From contig NZ_WTVH02000009.1 of NCBI RefSeq assembly GCF_012910785.2, forward strand, positions 248,001 through 312,000: a DNA stretch of 64,000 nt. The letters run 5' to 3'. How positions within the stretch are numbered: position 1 is the stretch's first letter; every line of letters begins with the position of its first letter. Under the pieces are notes generated by a model. It searched no databases. It was not told the DNA's origin and saw only the letters and a list, made by a program, of their open reading frames with translations. Shown piece after piece: positions 50,588-59,224 of this stretch. Origin of the DNA: Aromatoleum buckelii. GTDB taxonomy: Bacteria; Pseudomonadota; Gammaproteobacteria; Burkholderiales; Rhodocyclaceae. Position numbers and translations under genes: made by a program.

Positions 50588-51514
50588 TCACCCCAGCGAC
50601 GTATCCAGCACCATCATCAGCACAAAACCCAGCATGAGTCCCGTAGTGGCGAAAGCCTCGTGGCCCTGGCGATGCGATTCCGGGATGATCTCGTGGCTGA
50701 TCACGAACAGCATCGCGCCGGCGGCGGCGGCGAGGCCCCACGGGAGCAGGTCCGCCGACACTCCGATGACCGCTGCGCCGAGCACCGCGAAAAGCGGCTC
50801 GACGAGGCCCGAGGCGATGCCGAGCATCGCGGAGAATGCGCGCGTGCAGCCTACCCGGCGCAGCGCAAGCGCGACGACGAGGCCTTCGGGCACGTCCTGG
50901 ATCGAAATGCCGGTCGCGAGGGCTTGGGCAGCCAGCGCATCCGGCCCGGCAAAAGCGACGCCGATTGCCAGGCCTTCCGGGAGGTTGTGCAGTGAAATGG
51001 CCAGCACGAACAACCACGCACGCCGGATGGCATGGACGCGAGGCCCCTCGACGCCTTTGAGGAAATGTTCGTGAGGCGTCAGGCGGTCGATCACGAGCAG
51101 GACCAGGCCGCCCAGCAGGACGGCCGAGCCCACCATCAGCCCGGCATCCCAGGCGCTGGCGCCTAGCGCGCGCGCCGCGTGCAGCGCCGGGATCACGAGC
51201 GAAAACGCGCACGCGGCGAGCATGACGCCTGCACCGAACCCGAGCATCGCGTCATTGGCGCGCTGGGAAAACTGCTGCGACAGCATGACCGGCAGCGTGC
51301 CGAGCGCCGTCGCGCCGGCTGCCATCAGTCCCCCCATTAGGGCGGCGGCAATGGGCGGGTCGTAGGCAGCGAGCTGGGCATGCATGTCGACGATGAGCAG
51401 GTACGCGCCGCCCAGAACGATCAGCAGCCCGATGCCGTGACGCAGCGTCATCCGGAGCGGCACTCCGCTTTTCGCAACGTCCAGCACTGCGGGCTGCGGA
51501 CCGGGGGTGTTCAC
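50588..51514 (-). CDS. ZIP-family divalent metal transporter
   Basis: 308 residues with about eight membrane segments. The ZIP signature in TM4, LAISLHNLPEGLAIGVAF, contains the H-N-x-P-E-G metal site; TM5 has IQDVPEGLVVAL, and ISHEIIPESHR follows. ZIP proteins import Zn, Fe or Mn. The start overlaps the Mn-catalase stop by 4 bp, suggesting that manganese supply to the catalase may be its role. Confidence 0.9.
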   Translation of the reverse strand: MNTPGPQPAVLDVAKSGVPLRMTLRHGIGLLIVLGGAYLLIVDMHAQLAAYDPPIAAALMGGLMAAGATALGTLPVMLSQQFSQRANDAMLGFGAGVMLAACAFSLVIPALHAARALGASAWDAGLMVGSAVLLGGLVLLVIDRLTPHEHFLKGVEGPRVHAIRRAWLFVLAISLHNLPEGLAIGVAFAGPDALAAQALATGISIQDVPEGLVVALALRRVGCTRAFSAMLGIASGLVEPLFAVLGAAVIGVSADLLPWGLAAAAGAMLFVISHEIIPESHRQGHEAFATTGLMLGFVLMMVLDTSLG

Positions 51515-52470
51515 GGCTTGGACTTCGATCCGCGCCCGGATGACCCGGTTGAGCCCGGCTTGGGAGCAGGGGACGAAGTTTTGGCCGCATCGCCGCCTGG
51601 GCCTGACGCCGGGTCCATGCCCAGTTCGGCACCGGTGCAGGGGTCGCTCTGCGGGTCGGAACGCGTCCGGATCGCCAGCTGATCGATCGCGGCTTTTTCA
51701 GTTTTCATCAACCCGACTTCGGCCATCCCGGAGCCGCCGTCCACCGCCGGTTGTGCTTCGCGGTAGTCGAAGCCGGGCTCGCTGTTCCACGGGCCTCGCT
51801 CGCCGGCTTCGCCATCGGACATGTTGTAGTAAACGCTGGCGAATTCCTTCATGCCGGGTAGCTTGCCGGGCGGGAAGCTCGGCTGCATCGAGTACAGCGC
51901 TTTCTCGAACGAGCGCTGGTGCGAGATTTCCCGCGTCATCAGGAAGCCCAGCGCCTCTTTTACGCCCGGGTCGTCGGTGCAGTTGATCAGCCTTTCGTAG
52001 ATGATCTTTGCGCGCGCTTCGGCGGCGATGTTCGAGCGCAGGTCCGCGGCCGGATCCCCGATCGTGTCGATATAGGCGGCGCTCCACGGCACGCCGCCGG
52101 AATTGGTCAAGGGCGGGCCGCCGCCGTAAAGCAGCTGGGTCACATGCGAGTCGTTACCGGCGCCGCTGATGTTCTTGTACAGCTCCGCCTCGGCTTCCAT
52201 TGCTTCGGAGAGGCGTCCCTTCGCACCTTTGTTCAGCATCGCCACGATCGTTCCGATGACTTCGAGGTGGCTCAGCTCCTCGGTCGCGATGTCGATCAGC
52301 ATGTCCTTGCGGCCGGGGTCGTCTTCGGCCAGGTACTGCGTGAAATAGCGACACGCTGCGGCAAGTTCGCCTTGCGGGCCGCCGAACTGTTCGAGCATGA
52401 GGTTCGCGAGCCCGGAATTGGTTTCCGATACCCGCACCGTGTATTGCAGTCGCTTGTTATGAGTAAACAT
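51511..52470 (-). CDS. Manganese catalase
   Basis: 319 residues from ATG 52470, with AAAGGAA upstream. Ferritin-like four-helix fold with metal ligands in AAACRYFTQYLAE, IATEELSHLEVIG (E-x-x-H) and LMTREISHQRSFEKAL (E-x-x-H). It disproportionates hydrogen peroxide with a dinuclear Mn centre and no haem. The C-terminal 60 residues are a hydrophilic tail. It is translationally coupled to the ZIP transporter gene downstream. Confidence 0.93.
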   Translation of the reverse strand: MFTHNKRLQYTVRVSETNSGLANLMLEQFGGPQGELAAACRYFTQYLAEDDPGRKDMLIDIATEELSHLEVIGTIVAMLNKGAKGRLSEAMEAEAELYKNISGAGNDSHVTQLLYGGGPPLTNSGGVPWSAAYIDTIGDPAADLRSNIAAEARAKIIYERLINCTDDPGVKEALGFLMTREISHQRSFEKALYSMQPSFPPGKLPGMKEFASVYYNMSDGEAGERGPWNSEPGFDYREAQPAVDGGSGMAEVGLMKTEKAAIDQLAIRTRSDPQSDPCTGAELGMDPASGPGGDAAKTSSPAPKPGSTGSSGRGSKSKP

Positions 52471-53013
52471 GCCTGTTCCTTTGAAAATTGGGGGCCGAGG
52501 TCCGGCGCCCAAGCTCAGGCAAGGTGCATTCCCTGGCTGCGGCGACCGCGCGAAGCGCGCTACACGGGAGTCGCTCCAGGGATGCAGTTGCGTATCGGAA
52601 CGCGAACGTCACCGCCTTCACGGCGGAAAATACAGCGGCAAATTCGTCGCTGTGGCGTGCGAGGGGGCCTGCAGACAAACACTGCGTGGGCTGCACGCGC
52701 AGAGGTCCAGCAAAGGGCGAGGCGAGGTTCGCCACGCCGTGACGTCCCTGAATTTCCTCATTGCAAACGAAAGACTTACCGCCGCACCGAAAGATTTACA
52801 TGGGCCGGCAGTTGGGGCGGGAGTGGTCACCCGGTTCCAGCTTCGGAATTGCAGGATCGGCGCGGCAAGATGGTTTCGCTTTGAGATGGGACGGGGGTTT
52901 TGATACAAATCAATTGAGAACGATTGGCGTTTCGGTAGAGTGACTGCAACGCTTTGCAACATACGGTCAGCCAGCAGGACGCGAGCCAGCACCGTTTCCA
53001 ACCGGGTTCCTCC
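52471..53013. other. Divergent intergenic region: Mn catalase / TonB receptor
   Basis: About 540 bp. The right end carries a Fur-like site and a promoter for the receptor operon. The left part has no gene; some short frames are present without ribosome sites. Confidence 0.5.
52901..52941 (+). promoter_or_regulatory. Fur-like box and sigma-70 promoter of the TonB receptor operon
   Basis: TTGAGA (52914) and TAGAGT (52936) with a 16-bp spacer make a fair promoter. The -35 lies within TGATACAAATCAATTGAGAA followed by CGATT, which resembles a Fur/Zur-type AT-rich operator (TGAGAAxGATT-like half-site). Metal-dependent repression is thus plausible but unproven. Confidence 0.4.
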
Positions 53014-55077
53014 ATGCCGACTTTCCGTCCGGGCGTCCTGTACGCCGCGCTCGCCTGCGCTTTTTCTTCCGTTTCTTCCCACGCCGATGAAGCGGCGCAC
53101 CTCTCCGCAGTGACCGTGACGGCCAAAGGCTACGCTTCGGCGAACGCCGAAACACCGGCGTCGGTGACGGCGCTCGAGCGCGAGCAGTGGCTCGACCGCG
53201 GCGCGGACAATGTCGGCGAAGCGTTGCGCGGCCAACCTGGCCTGGCGGTCGCGAGCGACGGCGCGCAGGGGCAGAATCCCGTGATCCGCGGGCTGAAGAA
53301 GGAAAGCGTCGTCCTTCTCGTCGACGGGATGCGGCTCAATTCCGCGCAGCCCGCCGGCGCAATCGCATCCTTCATGTCGCTGGGGCTCGCCGAGCGCATC
53401 GAAGTCGTGCGCGGATCGGCTTCGGTGCTGTACGGGACCGGCGCGCTCGGCGGTGCGATCAACGTCCTCCTCCCGCAGGCGCGCTTCGAAGCCGGAGTGC
53501 AGATGCGCGCGGGCGCCGAGTTCGAAACCGCGAACGAGGGCGTGCGCGGCACCGCAGTGATGAATGCGTCGGAGGGCGATCACGCGCTGATGCTCGGCGC
53601 GTCGCTCGCGCGCATCGGCGACTACCGTGCCCCTGACGGCGAAGTCGACCACACCGATTACGACTCGGACAGTTTCATCGCGCAGTACCGCTTTCGCCTC
53701 GATGATTCCCAGCAGTTGCGGCTGTCGCTGCAGCAGCACGAGGACCGCGACGTGTCGTACCCGGGTTCGATCAAGCCGCATCCGCATCCGCAGATCCGCA
53801 GCTCGATCATCCACTCGCCGTCGCAGACGCGCGAGCTCGTCGAAGTCGGCTACAGCCGGCGCGGGTCGGGTGACGCGCCGGTGAATGTCGACGTTCGCGT
53901 GTATCGGCAGGAGATGGAGCGCGAGATCGCCGCGCGCGCGAAAGGGCCGCTCGGGCGCGACTTCTCCGATACCGAAGTCACGTTTGCGACCGACGGACTC
54001 GACGCCCGCGCCGACTGGTTGGCCCACCCGGACCATCTGCTGTCTTTCGGCGTCAATGCGTGGCAGATGGAAGCGTCGCCCGAACGTTTCCTCAGCAGCC
54101 CGCCGACGTTCGCGAGAGGCCGCAACGATCCTTTCGACGACGGGCGCATCGAGGCGATCGGCGTTTTCGTGCAGGACGACATGCGTTTCGGTCGCCTCAA
54201 CGTGCTCGCCGGGCTGCGCCGCGACTGGGTCGAAGGCGACGCGGATTCGGTGAACAACGGCGCGATCACGCGCGGCCTCGAGCGCAGCGACAGCGCGACT
54301 TCGGGCAGTCTCGGCGCGATCTATGAAGTGTCGAAGCTGCTGCGGCCGTATGCGAACGTTTCGCGCGCGTTTCGCGCCGGCGAGATGCGCGAACGCTTCG
54401 AGTCCTCGCCGCGCAGCGACGGCTATTACTACGTCGGCAATCCGCGCATCGAGCCGGAGATCGCCACGCAGTTCGAAATCGGCCTCAAAGGCGCCGACGC
54501 CGACCTGAGCTATGCGCTGTCCGCGTATCGCACGCGCATCACCGACTACATCACCGGGCGCAACGTCTCCGGTGCGCCCGGCACGAACCGCTGCCCGCCG
54601 GCCAACGCCAGCGCCTGCAAGGAAACGTTCAATCTCGGCCGCGCCACGCTGGTCGGCGTCGAAGCCGAGGCGCGCTGGCAGGCCGTGCGGGGGCAATGGC
54701 TGACGGCGGCATGCTCGCGCGTGCGCGGCGAGAACGAGGACCTCGACGAGCCGCTGTTCCAGATGCCGGCCGACGAAATGTCGCTCGGCTGGGAGGGCAG
54801 GGTGGCCGCGGCGTGGACCGCTGACGCGACGCTGCGCCTCGTGCGCAAGCAGGACCGCGTCGCGACCGTGTTCGCCGCCGGCACCGAGAACGAGACGTCC
54901 GGCTTTGCGACCGCGGACTTCGGCGCGACCTGGCACGGACAGCGCCAGCGCGTGCGCGTCGCGCTCAAGAACGCATTCGACAAGCCGTATCACGAGCACC
55001 TCACCGAAGGCGTGTCCGGGATGGAAATCGACGCGCCGGGCCGCAGCCTGATGGTGTCGTGGCAGGGGCAGTTCTGA
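53014..55077 (+). CDS. TonB-dependent outer-membrane receptor
   Basis: 687 residues from ATG 53014. Signal peptide (PGVLYAALACAFSSVSSHA), TonB-box/plug region (VTVTAKG, QNPVIRGLKKESVVLLVDGMR, ERIEVVRGSASVLYGTGALGGAINV), and a beta barrel whose end FRAGEMRERF, then GNPRIEPE and the terminal Phe are characteristic. The extracellular-loop pattern resembles haemoglobin/transferrin-type and copper receptors; the ligand cannot be told. It is translationally coupled to the ABC binding-protein gene by TGATG, an unusual link that makes the two likely partners. Confidence 0.93.
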   Translation: MPTFRPGVLYAALACAFSSVSSHADEAAHLSAVTVTAKGYASANAETPASVTALEREQWLDRGADNVGEALRGQPGLAVASDGAQGQNPVIRGLKKESVVLLVDGMRLNSAQPAGAIASFMSLGLAERIEVVRGSASVLYGTGALGGAINVLLPQARFEAGVQMRAGAEFETANEGVRGTAVMNASEGDHALMLGASLARIGDYRAPDGEVDHTDYDSDSFIAQYRFRLDDSQQLRLSLQQHEDRDVSYPGSIKPHPHPQIRSSIIHSPSQTRELVEVGYSRRGSGDAPVNVDVRVYRQEMEREIAARAKGPLGRDFSDTEVTFATDGLDARADWLAHPDHLLSFGVNAWQMEASPERFLSSPPTFARGRNDPFDDGRIEAIGVFVQDDMRFGRLNVLAGLRRDWVEGDADSVNNGAITRGLERSDSATSGSLGAIYEVSKLLRPYANVSRAFRAGEMRERFESSPRSDGYYYVGNPRIEPEIATQFEIGLKGADADLSYALSAYRTRITDYITGRNVSGAPGTNRCPPANASACKETFNLGRATLVGVEAEARWQAVRGQWLTAACSRVRGENEDLDEPLFQMPADEMSLGWEGRVAAAWTADATLRLVRKQDRVATVFAAGTENETSGFATADFGATWHGQRQRVRVALKNAFDKPYHEHLTEGVSGMEIDAPGRSLMVSWQGQF

Positions 55078-56090
55078 TGGCGATCCGACGCTTTGTCCGC
55101 GTCCTCGGCCTGCTCGCCGCGTTGCTGTCGCCGCTTGCCGCGCACGCCGACAAGCTGCCGCGCCTCGTCCTCGGCGGCCCGGGCGCAGTCGTGTCGGCCC
55201 CCTTGATCCACATGGTCGAGACCGGAGCGCTCGCGGATCTCGCCGAATCGGTGAGCTTCGTCCAGTGGCGCGATCCGGACCAGTTGCGCGCGATGGCGCT
55301 CGATGGCCAGGCGGACGTCCTGGCGATGCCGACCAACGTCGCCGCGAACCTGCACAACCGCGGCGCCCCCGTCACGCTTCTGAACGTGTCGACGTGGGGG
55401 GCGCTGTGGATGGTGTCGCGCTCGCCGGACAGGAAAACCCTCGCCGATTTTCGTGGCGAGGAGATCGCGATGCCGTTCCGCGGCGACATGCCGGACATCA
55501 TCTTCCAGCTCCTCGCCGCGCGTCAGGGCCTCGACGTGCGCAAGGATTTCCGCATCCGCTACGTCGCGACGCCGGTCGACGCGATGCAGCTGCTCGTGAT
55601 GCGGCGCGTGGATCATGCGCTGCTGGCCGAGCCGGCGGTGTCGATGGCCTTGCGCAAGACGAAGTCCTTCCCGCTCGGCCTCGTCGCGCCGGAACTGCAC
55701 CGCAGCGTCGATTTCCAGCAGGAATGGGGACGCCTGTACGCGCGCAGCACCCGCATCCCGCAGGCCGGCATTGCCGCGGTCGGTGCGGTGCGCGAGCAGC
55801 CCGACATCCTCGCGCGCATCGAGGCGGCCTATGCCGCGTCGCTCGCGTGGTGCCGGACGCATGCCCTCGAATGCGGCCGCATGGTCGCCAAGCACATCGA
55901 CATCCTCAGCGCCGAAGCGGTGTCCGACGCGATCGGCGTGAGCCAGCTCGACGCGGTGCCGGCAACGCAGGCGCGCGATGCGCTCGCGTTCTTCTTCGAA
56001 CAGCTCAAGGCGCGCAACCCCGCGCTGATCGGCGGCAAGCTGCCGGGCGACGCGTTCTACGGCGGTAAATGCGCGGATTGCAAGCCGTGA
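55077..56090 (+). CDS. NitT/TauT-type ABC transporter substrate-binding protein
   Basis: 337 residues from ATG 55077. A signal peptide (VRVLGLLAALLSPLAAHA) precedes a two-lobed NMT1/SsuA-like domain: RLVLGGPGAVVSAPLIHMVETG, ADVLAMPTNVAANLHNRG, LNVSTWGALWMVS and RVDHALLAEPAVSMAL. The tail ends GGKCADCKP, a CxxC pair that could bind metal. It sits between the TonB receptor (overlap) and the permease gene (10 bp). Confidence 0.88.
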   Translation: MAIRRFVRVLGLLAALLSPLAAHADKLPRLVLGGPGAVVSAPLIHMVETGALADLAESVSFVQWRDPDQLRAMALDGQADVLAMPTNVAANLHNRGAPVTLLNVSTWGALWMVSRSPDRKTLADFRGEEIAMPFRGDMPDIIFQLLAARQGLDVRKDFRIRYVATPVDAMQLLVMRRVDHALLAEPAVSMALRKTKSFPLGLVAPELHRSVDFQQEWGRLYARSTRIPQAGIAAVGAVREQPDILARIEAAYAASLAWCRTHALECGRMVAKHIDILSAEAVSDAIGVSQLDAVPATQARDALAFFFEQLKARNPALIGGKLPGDAFYGGKCADCKP

Positions 56091-56100
56091 GCGTGCAGTC

Positions 56101-56892
56101 ATGATGCTGCTGCGAGCGTGGCTCGGCGGCTTGCCGGCCTACCTGTGGAGCGGATGGGGCGCGATCGCGAGCCTGCTGCTGCTGCTCGCGGCATGGGAAG
56201 GCGGCAGCGCGATCTACGGTTCGCTGATCCTGCCCGATCCGCTGACGACGTTCGCCACGCTCGCCGACCTCGTCACGACTGGAGCCGCGTGGCCGGAGCT
56301 TGCCGTCACCGCGCGACGCGCGCTGATCGGGCTCGCGATTGCGGTCGCGATCGGCACTGCGCTGGGGCTCGCCGCCGGCGTGTCGGTGACCGCGTCGATG
56401 ATGTCGCGCCCGCTCGTCACGGTATTGCTCGGCACGCCGCCGATCGCGTGGCTCGTGCTCGCGATGCTGTGGTTCGGCGCTTCGGACGGCACGCCGGTGT
56501 TCACCGTCGTCGTCGCGTGCTTTCCGGTGATCTTCGTCGGCGCGTTGCAGGGCACGCGCACGCTCGACCACCACCTGAAGGACATGGCGCATGCGTTCCG
56601 ACTGCCGGCGCGGATGAAATTTTTCGACCTCTATCTGCCGCACGTCGTCTCGTATCTTTTCCCGGCGTGGATCACGGCGCTCGGCACCGCGTGGAAAGTC
56701 GTCGTGATGGCCGAGCTGCTGTCGTCGAGCGACGGTGTCGGCGCCGCGCTCGCCGTGACCCGTTCGCACCTCGACACCGCCGGCACGCTGGCGTGGATCT
56801 GCGCGGTCGTCGGCAGTCTGCTGGCGGTCGAATACCTCGTGCTCGAACCGATCAAGCGGGAAGTCGAGCGCTGGCGGGAGAATTTCGTATGA
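56101..56892 (+). CDS. ABC transporter permease (NitT/TauT, SsuC-like)
   Basis: 263 residues with about six membrane segments. The EAA-loop region is ALQGTRTLDHHLKDMAHAFRLPARMKFFDLYLPHVVSYLFPAWITALGTAWKVVVMAELL, typical of BPD_transp_1 permeases of sulfonate/nitrate/thiamine-precursor type. It overlaps the ATPase gene by 4 bp. Confidence 0.92.
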   Translation: MMLLRAWLGGLPAYLWSGWGAIASLLLLLAAWEGGSAIYGSLILPDPLTTFATLADLVTTGAAWPELAVTARRALIGLAIAVAIGTALGLAAGVSVTASMMSRPLVTVLLGTPPIAWLVLAMLWFGASDGTPVFTVVVACFPVIFVGALQGTRTLDHHLKDMAHAFRLPARMKFFDLYLPHVVSYLFPAWITALGTAWKVVVMAELLSSSDGVGAALAVTRSHLDTAGTLAWICAVVGSLLAVEYLVLEPIKREVERWRENFV

Positions 56893-57746
56893 ATCCGCGC
56901 CTTGCCGTCGCCGGGCTCGCTCACGCCTACGCGCTGAAAACGGTGCTCGACGACATCGACCTCACGCTCGAAGCGGGGCGGGTGATGGCGCTGGTCGGCC
57001 CTTCGGGCTGCGGCAAGACGACGCTGCTGCACCTGTGCGCCGGGCTCGTGCCGGTGCAGCGCGGCCTCCTCGAAAACAGCTTCGCGCGTCCGGCGGTGAT
57101 GTTCCAGCAACCTCGGCTGTTGCCGTGGAAGACGGCGCGGGACAACATCGCGCTCGGCCTGAAAGCCGCCGGCGTCCCGTCGGCGGAGCGAATCCGCCGC
57201 AGCGCGGCGATGGCCCGTGCAGTCGGTCTCGACGACCTCGCGCTGGACCAGTTTCCGCACGCGCTCTCGGGCGGCATGCAGAGCCGGGTTGCGCTGGCCC
57301 GCGCGCTGGTGCTCGCGCCCGACCTGCTGCTCATGGACGAGCCTTTCTCGGCGCTCGACATCGGCCTGAAAGGCCAGCTGCACCGCCTGCTTCTCGACCA
57401 CCAGCGCGAGCACGGGCTCGCGGTGCTGATGATCACTCACGACCTGATGGAAGCGGTCCGGCTCGCCGACACGATTCTCGTCATGGCGCCCGAGCCCGGC
57501 CGCATCGTGTACCGCGTCGATCTGCCGACGCCCGCGAGCGCACGTGACGAAGCGCAGACGTATCAGCGGACCGCCGAACTGCTGCAGGTGCCGGCGGTGC
57601 GGCAGAGTTTCGGTCTCGGGCCTGTGCCTTCGGCAGGTGGCACAGCGTTTCCCGTGCGCGCCACGGAGCCGGCGGTGCATGTCGCGGATCTGCCCGGCGA
57701 ACGGCGGGTGTCGACGGTAAAGGCGAAAAGGGCAAGCTCATGTTGA
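56889..57746 (+). CDS. ABC transporter ATP-binding protein (SsuB-like)
   Basis: 285 residues from ATG 56889. Walker A GPSGCGKTT, Q-loop FQQPRLLPWKTARDN, signature LSGGMQSRVALARAL, Walker B LLLMDEPFSALD and switch His in MITHDLMEAVRLAD. The last 60 residues are an extension of no known role. Overlaps the permease (ATGA) and nnrS (7 bp). Confidence 0.95.
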   Translation: MNPRLAVAGLAHAYALKTVLDDIDLTLEAGRVMALVGPSGCGKTTLLHLCAGLVPVQRGLLENSFARPAVMFQQPRLLPWKTARDNIALGLKAAGVPSAERIRRSAAMARAVGLDDLALDQFPHALSGGMQSRVALARALVLAPDLLLMDEPFSALDIGLKGQLHRLLLDHQREHGLAVLMITHDLMEAVRLADTILVMAPEPGRIVYRVDLPTPASARDEAQTYQRTAELLQVPAVRQSFGLGPVPSAGGTAFPVRATEPAVHVADLPGERRVSTVKAKRASSC

Positions 57747-58978
57747 CGCTGCGGCGCCTGTGGTCCCTCGATCACCCTGTCTGGCTGTGCGGTTTCCGCT
57801 CCTTCTTCCTGTTCGCCGTGCTGTCCGCGCCGCTGCTCGTTCTCGCGTGGGGCGCCTTCATCGCCTGGGGCGTGCCGCTGCCCGCGACTCCCGGCGGAGC
57901 CTTCGTCTGGCATGCGCACGAACTGCTGTTCGGCTTCGGACTCGCGGCCGTCGCGGGCTTCGCGCTCACCGCGGTGCCCGAATTCACCCGCAGCCCTGCG
58001 GTCGGCCCCCGCGCGGTGCGGCTGCTCGCGGTGTCGTGGCTGGCGGGGCGCGTCGCGTTCTGGTTCTCTGGGGCCGTCGGTGCTCCCGCGCTGCTCGTCT
58101 CGGCGCTCGCCCATCTCGGGCTGCTCGCCGGCCTGATTTTTCTGCTCGCTCCGCGCCTGTGGCGCCACCCCGAGCGACGCCACCTGTCTTTTCTCTGGGC
58201 GCTGATCGCGCTGACGGTGCTGGTCGCCGGCTTCTACGCCGACGCGCTGAGCGGCGCCTCGCCCGCGCGCTGGCTCCACGCGACGCTCGGCGTGCTGATG
58301 ATCCTGATCGTCGTCGCGCTGAGCCGCATCTCGATGCGCATCGTCAATGCGTCGATCGACACGTGGCGCGAAAAAGGCGGCACGCTGCGGGATGAATATC
58401 GTGCCCGCCCGCCGCGGCGCAATCTCGCGATCGTCTGCATCGGTCTCTACACCGCAGTCGAGTTCGTCGCGCCCGGCGCGCGGCTCGGCGGCTGGCTGGC
58501 GCTCGCGGCGTCGGCGGCGCTTTTCAATCTGCTCAACGACTGGCACGTCGGCCGCCCGCTTTTCCGGCGCTGGCCGTTGATGCTGTATCTGGTGTATGCC
58601 CTGATGGCGGCCGGCTTCGGCCTGATCGGGTTGGCGCTGGTCGGCGGGGACGGCGCCGTCAGCAGCGGGCGTCACCTATTGACCGTGGGGGCGCTCGGTC
58701 TGAGCGTATTCGTCGTCGTCTGCATCGCCGGGCGCACGCATGGCGGTTACCCGCTCGACGAGCGCCGCTGGATTCCGGCCAGCGCCGCGTTGCTCGTCGC
58801 CGCCGCCGTCATGCGCGCTGTCGCCGGGGGAGCGGGCAGCGATGGTGCTGCGTGGATGGGCGCCGCAAGCGTCGCGTGGGTATTGGCGTTCGCGCTGTGC
58901 TGCGCGTATCTCGCGCCGCTGTTCGTCCGGGCGCGCCCGAACGGCGGCGTCGGCTGCGAAGGGCCGCCGGGTGACTGA
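57740..58978 (+). CDS. nnrS: NnrS family haem-copper membrane protein
   Basis: 412 residues with about 12 membrane segments. WHAHELLFGFGLAAVAGFALTAVPEFT is the NnrS start pattern, and later HATLGVLMILIVVALSRISMRIVNAS and IAGRTHGGYPL provide further His-containing helices. NnrS proteins help bacteria withstand nitric oxide and are common in denitrifiers. Here it ends an operon with a TonB receptor and ABC importer, overlapping the ATPase gene by 7 bp. That makes a link between import of a metal or cofactor and NO metabolism likely. Confidence 0.92.
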   Translation: MLTLRRLWSLDHPVWLCGFRSFFLFAVLSAPLLVLAWGAFIAWGVPLPATPGGAFVWHAHELLFGFGLAAVAGFALTAVPEFTRSPAVGPRAVRLLAVSWLAGRVAFWFSGAVGAPALLVSALAHLGLLAGLIFLLAPRLWRHPERRHLSFLWALIALTVLVAGFYADALSGASPARWLHATLGVLMILIVVALSRISMRIVNASIDTWREKGGTLRDEYRARPPRRNLAIVCIGLYTAVEFVAPGARLGGWLALAASAALFNLLNDWHVGRPLFRRWPLMLYLVYALMAAGFGLIGLALVGGDGAVSSGRHLLTVGALGLSVFVVVCIAGRTHGGYPLDERRWIPASAALLVAAAVMRAVAGGAGSDGAAWMGAASVAWVLAFALCCAYLAPLFVRARPNGGVGCEGPPGD

Positions 58979-59133: not shown

Positions 59134-59224
59134 TGGCGGAGAGGGCGGGATTCGAACCCGCGTTGGGATATTATCCCAAACACGCTTTCCAGGCGTGCGA
59201 CTTAAACCACTCATCCACCTCTCC
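59134..59224 (-). tRNA. tRNA-Ser (anticodon GGA)
   Basis: 91 nt on the minus strand with GGAGAGG acceptor strand, D-arm, anticodon loop CTGGAAA in the stem GCACG/CGTGT, a long class II variable arm (TTGGGATAATATCCCAA), T-arm with GGTTCGAATCC, discriminator G and encoded CCA. The long variable arm and GGA anticodon identify serine. Confidence 0.97.

Follow-up and report, generated by a model that had tools for sequence, protein, structure and literature searches.

NnrS is a protein of nitric oxide (NO) defence in V. cholerae and R. sphaeroides, and in the excerpt available of one report it is said to protect the iron pool of V. cholerae from dinitrosyl-iron complexes (PMC9246220); the excerpt available of a second report says much the same (PMC10256816). 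Here we describe an operon of Aromatoleum buckelii in which nnrS accompanies the genes of a TonB-dependent receptor and an ATP-binding cassette (ABC) importer, at 53014-58978 of a stretch of 64,000 nucleotides (nt) that was analysed as a whole (positions 248,001 to 312,000 of contig NZ_WTVH02000009.1; hereafter, the window). Like the NnrS of NO defence, the operon copy is a full-length member of PF05940, but it accompanies an importer and groups apart from stand-alone NnrS, in a comparison to which the V. cholerae and R. sphaeroides proteins were external. The importer shares its binding-protein fold and its permease and ATPase type with the SsuABC, TauABC and NrtABCD systems, which use NMT1/THI5-like binding proteins, and with PqqT; however, its proteins score below every curated cut-off for a named substrate, and the operon adds a TonB receptor, NnrS and, in the promoters of relatives, FNR/DNR-type and Fur-type sites. 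The receptor is closest by sequence to the ShuA/PhuR haem receptors (TIGR01785). We put at about 0.5 the probability that the TonB/ABC importer of this operon carries an iron compound or an iron-linked cofactor, is switched on by a lack of oxygen or the presence of NO together with iron shortage, and has a dedicated NnrS. The five genes are as follows.

53014..55077, + strand: TonB-dependent receptor, 687 amino acids (aa); PF00593 and PF07715; sequence nearest the haem-receptor families
55077..56090, + strand: periplasmic binding protein, 337 aa; structure model with a mean predicted confidence (pLDDT) of 86.8; fold matches 3hn0, SsuA and PqqT
56101..56892, + strand: ABC permease, 263 aa; PF00528 (BPD_transp_1); closest models SaoP/SsuC/NtrB, all below cut-off
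56889..57746, + strand: ABC ATPase, 285 aa; PF00005 (ABC_tran); best models of taurine/sulfonate type, below cut-off
57740..58978, + strand: NnrS, 412 aa, of the ABC-linked group; PF05940 at 268.9 bits

The receptor stop and the binding-protein start overlap by 1 nt, a gap of 10 nt separates the binding-protein and permease genes, and the permease/ATPase and ATPase/nnrS pairs overlap by 4 nt and 7 nt. A sequence-only reading of this DNA had proposed five genes tied together by stop-start overlaps; its coordinates and overlaps hold, and the overlaps recur among relatives (ATPase/nnrS in 22 and permease/ATPase in 24 of 29 Rhodocyclaceae loci, with start codons assigned by a rough rule). The same reading had been staked on the genes being conserved together, which they are. 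The binding protein is present in 29 of 199 family genomes, Aromatoleum buckelii included, and in 16 of 68 genera; within the genus the operon occurs in three of six sampled genomes. In all 29 family genomes with the binding protein, the binding-protein, permease, ATPase and NnrS genes are collinear, and an orthologous receptor gene lies upstream on the same strand, at most 215 nt away, in 26 of them (divergent in one, not found in one, contig end in one). In a further set, 80 named loci were kept of 382 relatives, including Thauera, Azoarcus, Stutzerimonas, Acidovorax, Nitrosomonas and Thiobacillus; this set overlaps with the family and phylum sets, with which it shares at least eight contigs. 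Three were truncated and seven did not show the ATPase gene, and nnrS follows the ATPase gene in 70 of the 70 that remained, a count that includes four loci (L128, L138, L144 and L148) where nnrS overlaps or abuts it. A profile run across 398 phylum genomes found the binding protein in ten, and in eight of these, Aromatoleum buckelii included, NnrS stands beside the ABC genes. Linkage to NnrS is kept among phylum loci down to a binding-protein identity of about 31%, with a different gene order in one locus (L248) and about 1.2 kb between the ATPase gene and nnrS in another (L253). The receptor type varies by lineage (haem-like, PqqU-like or copper-receptor-like, all below cut-off) while this core stays constant. 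Taken together, the combination is real and conserved, and it joins an importer of a familiar type to a new partner that is almost always present. The operon is not described in the literature that we searched, which was seen in part and mostly covered sources other than subscription journals; papers on Nitrosomonas ureae and P. donghuensis mention NnrS separately, and work on Paracoccus NtrYX ties expression of nnrS and of a TonB receptor to iron limitation, in each case without this operon.

The operon NnrS matches PF05940 over profile positions 1-371 of 371, far above the cut-off of 28 bits, and His58, His60, His269, His312 and His334 are conserved in at least 27 of 29 orthologues. NnrS was found in 210 of the 398 phylum genomes, which makes the ABC-linked form a small subset; the Aromatoleum buckelii genome itself has four NnrS genes, and all of the 16 operon-bearing genomes examined carry one or more NnrS besides the operon copy. 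In a tree built from 63 NnrS proteins, 43 operon copies were split from 20 stand-alone copies, taken from the same genomes or related ones, by a branch with 100/100 support. A second tree, which also took in the genome's fourth NnrS and seven ABC-linked copies from distant loci, placed 26 of 27 ABC-linked rows together with support of 100/99. The exception is the second member of a tandem NnrS pair behind the ABC genes (L249:5306-7667), of which only the copy adjacent to the ATPase gene falls inside the ABC-linked group. Both trees drew long-branch warnings, in the first where the two groups meet, and both are without an outgroup. The first was built without the genome's fourth NnrS (L004) and without the copy from family genome G156; of the 43 operon rows, 20 entered the second, in which two of the seven distant sequences (L247 and L249b) are partial. 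Apart from L004, the stand-alone proteins in the trees are those with an extracted locus. The simplest reading is that importer and NnrS were inherited together. NnrS could instead be a general NO-defence gene that merely has its anaerobic promoter in common with an importer of unrelated function, as its abundance in the phylum allows and as its description, in the excerpt available, as a core member of NO-responsive regulons would suggest (PMC1274295). We consider such simple co-regulation improbable, given a linkage kept over so wide a range of binding-protein identity and linked NnrS proteins that group together although further NnrS genes are present in the same genomes.

The promoter region of the operon contains two candidate control sites.

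52900..52913, + strand: FNR/DNR-type box TTGATacaaATCAA (TTGAT-N4-ATCAA), a perfect palindrome and exact match
52916..52934, + strand: Fur-type box, degenerate, 10 of 19 matches

The palindrome TTGATacaaATCAA, whose pattern TTGAT-N4-ATCAA we take to be the FNR/DNR consensus, starts 114 nt ahead of the receptor start, and an exact match arose in none of 300 shuffles. Removal of near-duplicates left 67 of 83 upstream regions for comparison. The box occurs exactly in 26 of the 67 (shuffle mean 0.03) and with at most one mismatch in 48 (shuffle mean 0.58), and 44 of these 48 boxes sit at -90 to -127 from the ATG. A -10-like TAGAGT lies at 52936-52941, with its centre about 32 nt from that of the box, which would place the box near -41.5, close to what we assume to be the spacing of class II activators. 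The putative site is compatible with either FNR or DNR. This palindrome had been overlooked in the sequence-only reading, which had named only the Fur-like box beside it. Scored against what we take to be the Fur-type consensus, that box is not significant in the window itself, where its 10 of 19 matches were equalled in 211 of 300 shuffles, but it gains support from relatives: of the 48 regions with the FNR-type box, 42 also show an AAYNRTT Fur-type core in the 35 nt behind it, compared with 6.6 on average and at most 13 in shuffles. In Stutzerimonas the FNR-type and Fur-type sites touch or overlap, and Fur-like sites with 13-14 of 19 matches occur in three distant loci, counts that come without a shuffle control. 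In locus L059 (from genome G156), which has no receptor gene on the same strand, the closest match to the FNR-type box, with one mismatch, is found 197 nt ahead of the binding-protein gene. Upstream of the binding-protein gene in loci where no orthologous receptor precedes it, the box was found at up to one mismatch in 0 of 23, a weak negative because many of the scanned stretches lie in the operon, behind another receptor gene. Together, the putative control sites favour iron as the cargo.

We also compared gene content between family genomes with and without the operon. A strong nirS match is present in 26 of 29 operon-bearing genomes and in 101 of 170 others (Fisher p 0.0014), with 17 of 144 genomes scored as lacking nirS because their PF02239 matches were weak (E no better than about 1e-10). 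Co-occurrence with nosZ was not significant (21 of 29 against 92 of 170; p 0.07), and DUF2149 is present in 18 of 29 operon-bearing genomes and 38 of 170 others (p 6e-5). The earlier suggestion of metal or cofactor uptake under nitrosative stress is partly supported: the Fur-type core in relatives adds a link to iron, and the FNR/DNR-type box and the nirS counts add a link to anoxic or nitrosative conditions, while one element on which it had drawn, a CxxC motif in the binding protein, drops out.

The receptor scored 266.5 bits against the haem-receptor model TIGR01785, below its cut-off of 316.85, and PhuR and ShuA were its best matches in a profile search of the PDB. The fold scores (ChuA 38.9, BtuB 38.3, ShuA 38.2) do not separate haem from cobalamin receptors: ChuA and ShuA are among the best matches, but they tie with BtuB. 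A receptor of the ShuA type was rejected. With His86 and His420 presumed to be the axial haem ligands of ShuA, the H86 column is not His in the receptor family, and H420 falls in an insertion relative to it. With the OprC-type copper-receptor model (TIGR01778), the window receptor reached 124.6 bits, below the cut-off of 472.45. An importer that supplies copper to NnrS and to the copper-dependent enzymes of denitrification has in its favour that NnrS is described as a cuproprotein in the excerpt available of one paper (PMC6769254) and that TIGR01778 is the closest model for the receptor next to the distant locus L253, at 179 bits against 472. We judge this cargo very unlikely, in view of the low score of the window receptor, of a Fur-type core beside the promoter, of a nosZ association that is not significant and of a receptor family in which Cys is conserved nowhere and Met at three positions only (M352, M458 and M584).

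The model of the binding protein gave its highest Z score with the uncharacterised structure 3hn0 (29.8), followed by SsuA (25.5) and PqqT (24.7-25.4), and its best 12 matches (Z 23.2-29.8) extend across 276-290 residues, which indicates a two-lobed SsuA/NrtA/PqqT fold over the full length. By sequence, the protein reached 20.7 bits with the SsuA-type model TIGR01728 (cut-off 163.5), and PqqT was not among its profile matches to E 10. The fold, as modelled, is compatible with a sulfonate- or nitrate-like ligand. The CxxC at the end of the protein, which the sequence-only reading had picked out, is present, but it is found in only three of 29 orthologues, all of the same genus, and was ruled out as a metal motif; the cysteines that are conserved lie further inside, as the pair C259 (29 of 29) and C266 (27 of 29). 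A small organic cargo, either a quinone like pyrroloquinoline quinone (PQQ) or an anion of sulfonate or nitrate type, would fit the fold matches to SsuA and to PqqT with PQQ, and the receptors of Comamonadaceae and of locus L246 are nearest the PqqU model. Those scores, however, are 71-108 against a cut-off of 1200, and we rejected PqqU as the identity of these receptors. The plug residue Tyr99 marks PqqU, with a signature of Y99, R304 and R365, according to the part available of one study (PMC12124388). The Y99 position is Pro in the Diaphorobacter locus L162 (alignment numbering), and Tyr99 has no counterpart in the window receptor as we read the alignment; PqqU was also missing from the 25 models, out of 33, that were listed for that receptor. 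A Fur-type box would not be expected for such a cargo, which we regard as unlikely.

In Comamonadaceae, genes for a CirA-like receptor, a CobN-family chelatase, an ExbB-like protein and DUF2149 lie between the binding-protein and permease genes, and similar cassettes or parts of them occur elsewhere up to about 10 kb from the operon, in other arrangements. One such insert is that of Diaphorobacter (L162:10981-17905), where the chelatase is exported. By annotation, the cassette resembles the hmu operon in the excerpts available of two papers (PMC10434189, PMC12583661). Of the gene types of hmuYRSTUV of Bacteroidota, some relatives have the receptor, the chelatase, the ExbB-like protein and DUF2149 encoded within the operon or close to it, whereas the ABC importer and NnrS are extra and DUF2149 has no match in the Aromatoleum buckelii genome. 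The L162 chelatase passes the NCBIfam CobN model and matches HmuS and CobN structures about equally. HmuS is defined by Met79 and His254 in the excerpt available of its description (PMC12583661); these align to Tyr77 and Ile262 of the chelatase (L162 numbering), of which Ile262 is invariant and Tyr77 nearly so, and HmuS was rejected as its identity. His538, a mark of the HmuS superfamily, corresponds to an invariant His544, and the chelatase has Asp/Gln instead of His1209/Glu1212. We hold it possible, though doubtful, that the cargo is a tetrapyrrole, either haem or a cobamide-like ring, that is taken up whole; the haem version would be a narrower form of the iron reading. The cassette, the enrichment of DUF2149 among operon-bearing genomes and the nearness of the receptor to haem receptors by sequence all point this way. 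The missing ShuA ligands, the residues that depart from those of HmuS and the lack of a DUF2149 match in the window's own genome point the other way, as does the P. aeruginosa set PA1922-PA1925, which is likened to the cassette by annotation rather than by sequence and is zinc-regulated in the excerpt available of one report (PMC4542158).

Several observations weigh against an iron importer with a dedicated NnrS. Known binding proteins for iron or haem are mostly of types other than the SsuA/NrtA/PqqT fold, and proteins of this fold group usually bind small anions, thiamine precursors or PQQ. The receptor does not keep the ShuA ligands, the Fur-type box of the window is as weak as described above, and in 19 of the 67 upstream regions the FNR-type box is missing even when one mismatch is allowed. 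The importer occurs without an adjacent NnrS in two of the ten phylum genomes (G344 and G510), in the first of which a PqqU-like receptor follows; a further genome (G402) has two copies of the binding protein, one with no permease seen beside it; and nnrS reads as two pieces in family genome G156. Among operon-bearing genomes, eight of 29 have no nosZ and three have neither nirS nor nosZ, and the co-occurrence tests ignore kinship. The G156 locus (L059) also has a divergent receptor copy with internal stops as extracted, which together with the split nnrS indicates decay or sequence error.

If the operon does import iron, anoxia or NO would turn it on through FNR/DNR-type activation, together with derepression of Fur under iron shortage. 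The receptor would then carry the compound into the periplasm, and the binding protein would pass it to the ABC importer. By analogy with the V. cholerae protein, NnrS in the inner membrane would probably keep the newly imported iron, or haem, from nitrosylation. A bolder proposal, which we offer tentatively and think is probably not correct in full, is that NnrS is a working part of the importer, a haem and copper membrane protein that acts on an iron complex (perhaps a nitrosyl-iron or nitrosyl-haem) during its delivery, either by removing NO from it or by reducing it, and that the operon stands for a class of uptake systems for NO-rich habitats across Pseudomonadota. The biochemical role of NnrS is unsettled, and a group of NnrS proteins inherited with one importer would tie the family to nutrient import under iron shortage and NO and open its function to experiment in a compact operon that environmental denitrifiers carry. 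Cytochrome cd1 and further denitrification enzymes are affected by the supply of iron, so an importer dedicated to it would be relevant to denitrification and to the release of nitrous oxide.

The leader of the operon contains a further element.

52969..52990, + strand: direct repeat AGCCAGC-N8-AGCCAGC, between the promoter and the start codon

The strict pattern has a single copy in the Aromatoleum buckelii genome. Of the 67 leaders, 35 have repeats like AGCCAGC-N-GCCAGC, compared with a mean of 0.03 in shuffles; for the family alone the count is 17 of 26, and none was seen in the Stutzerimonas upstream regions. In a search of ten other genomes, 26 of 31 repeat loci (L065-L095) were inspected, with L069, L079, L084, L085 and L094 outside the narrower pattern. 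The repeat precedes five TonB receptor genes, an FTR1 iron permease gene and a ferritin-domain gene (at about position 1500 of loci L070, L071, L081, L083, L086, L090 and L092), which points to an iron-regulon leader, perhaps a shared post-transcriptional iron element and perhaps the target of a small RNA. No frame longer than 60 aa was found at L078, and no gene start was recognised behind the repeat at L067, L068, L072, L076 and L080. A run of perfect 4-base AGCC repeats, a microsatellite and possibly a phase-variable tract, lies upstream of a reading frame in one genome (G110:C31:470845-470895).

The operon is flanked by the following genes.

51514-52512, - strand: Mn-catalase family gene, PF05067, upstream of the operon
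59137-59224: tRNA gene, downstream of the operon, with an Rfam match that reaches the gathering score

Of the three Rfam matches, only that of the tRNA reached the gathering score, and no known riboswitch was found in the leader. No nor, hmp or nsrR gene was recognised in the frames at 50-62 kb of the window, part of which were covered by profile tests. The Mn-catalase family gene is divergent from the operon, and its product is weakly similar to ferritin-like models of encapsulin cargo.

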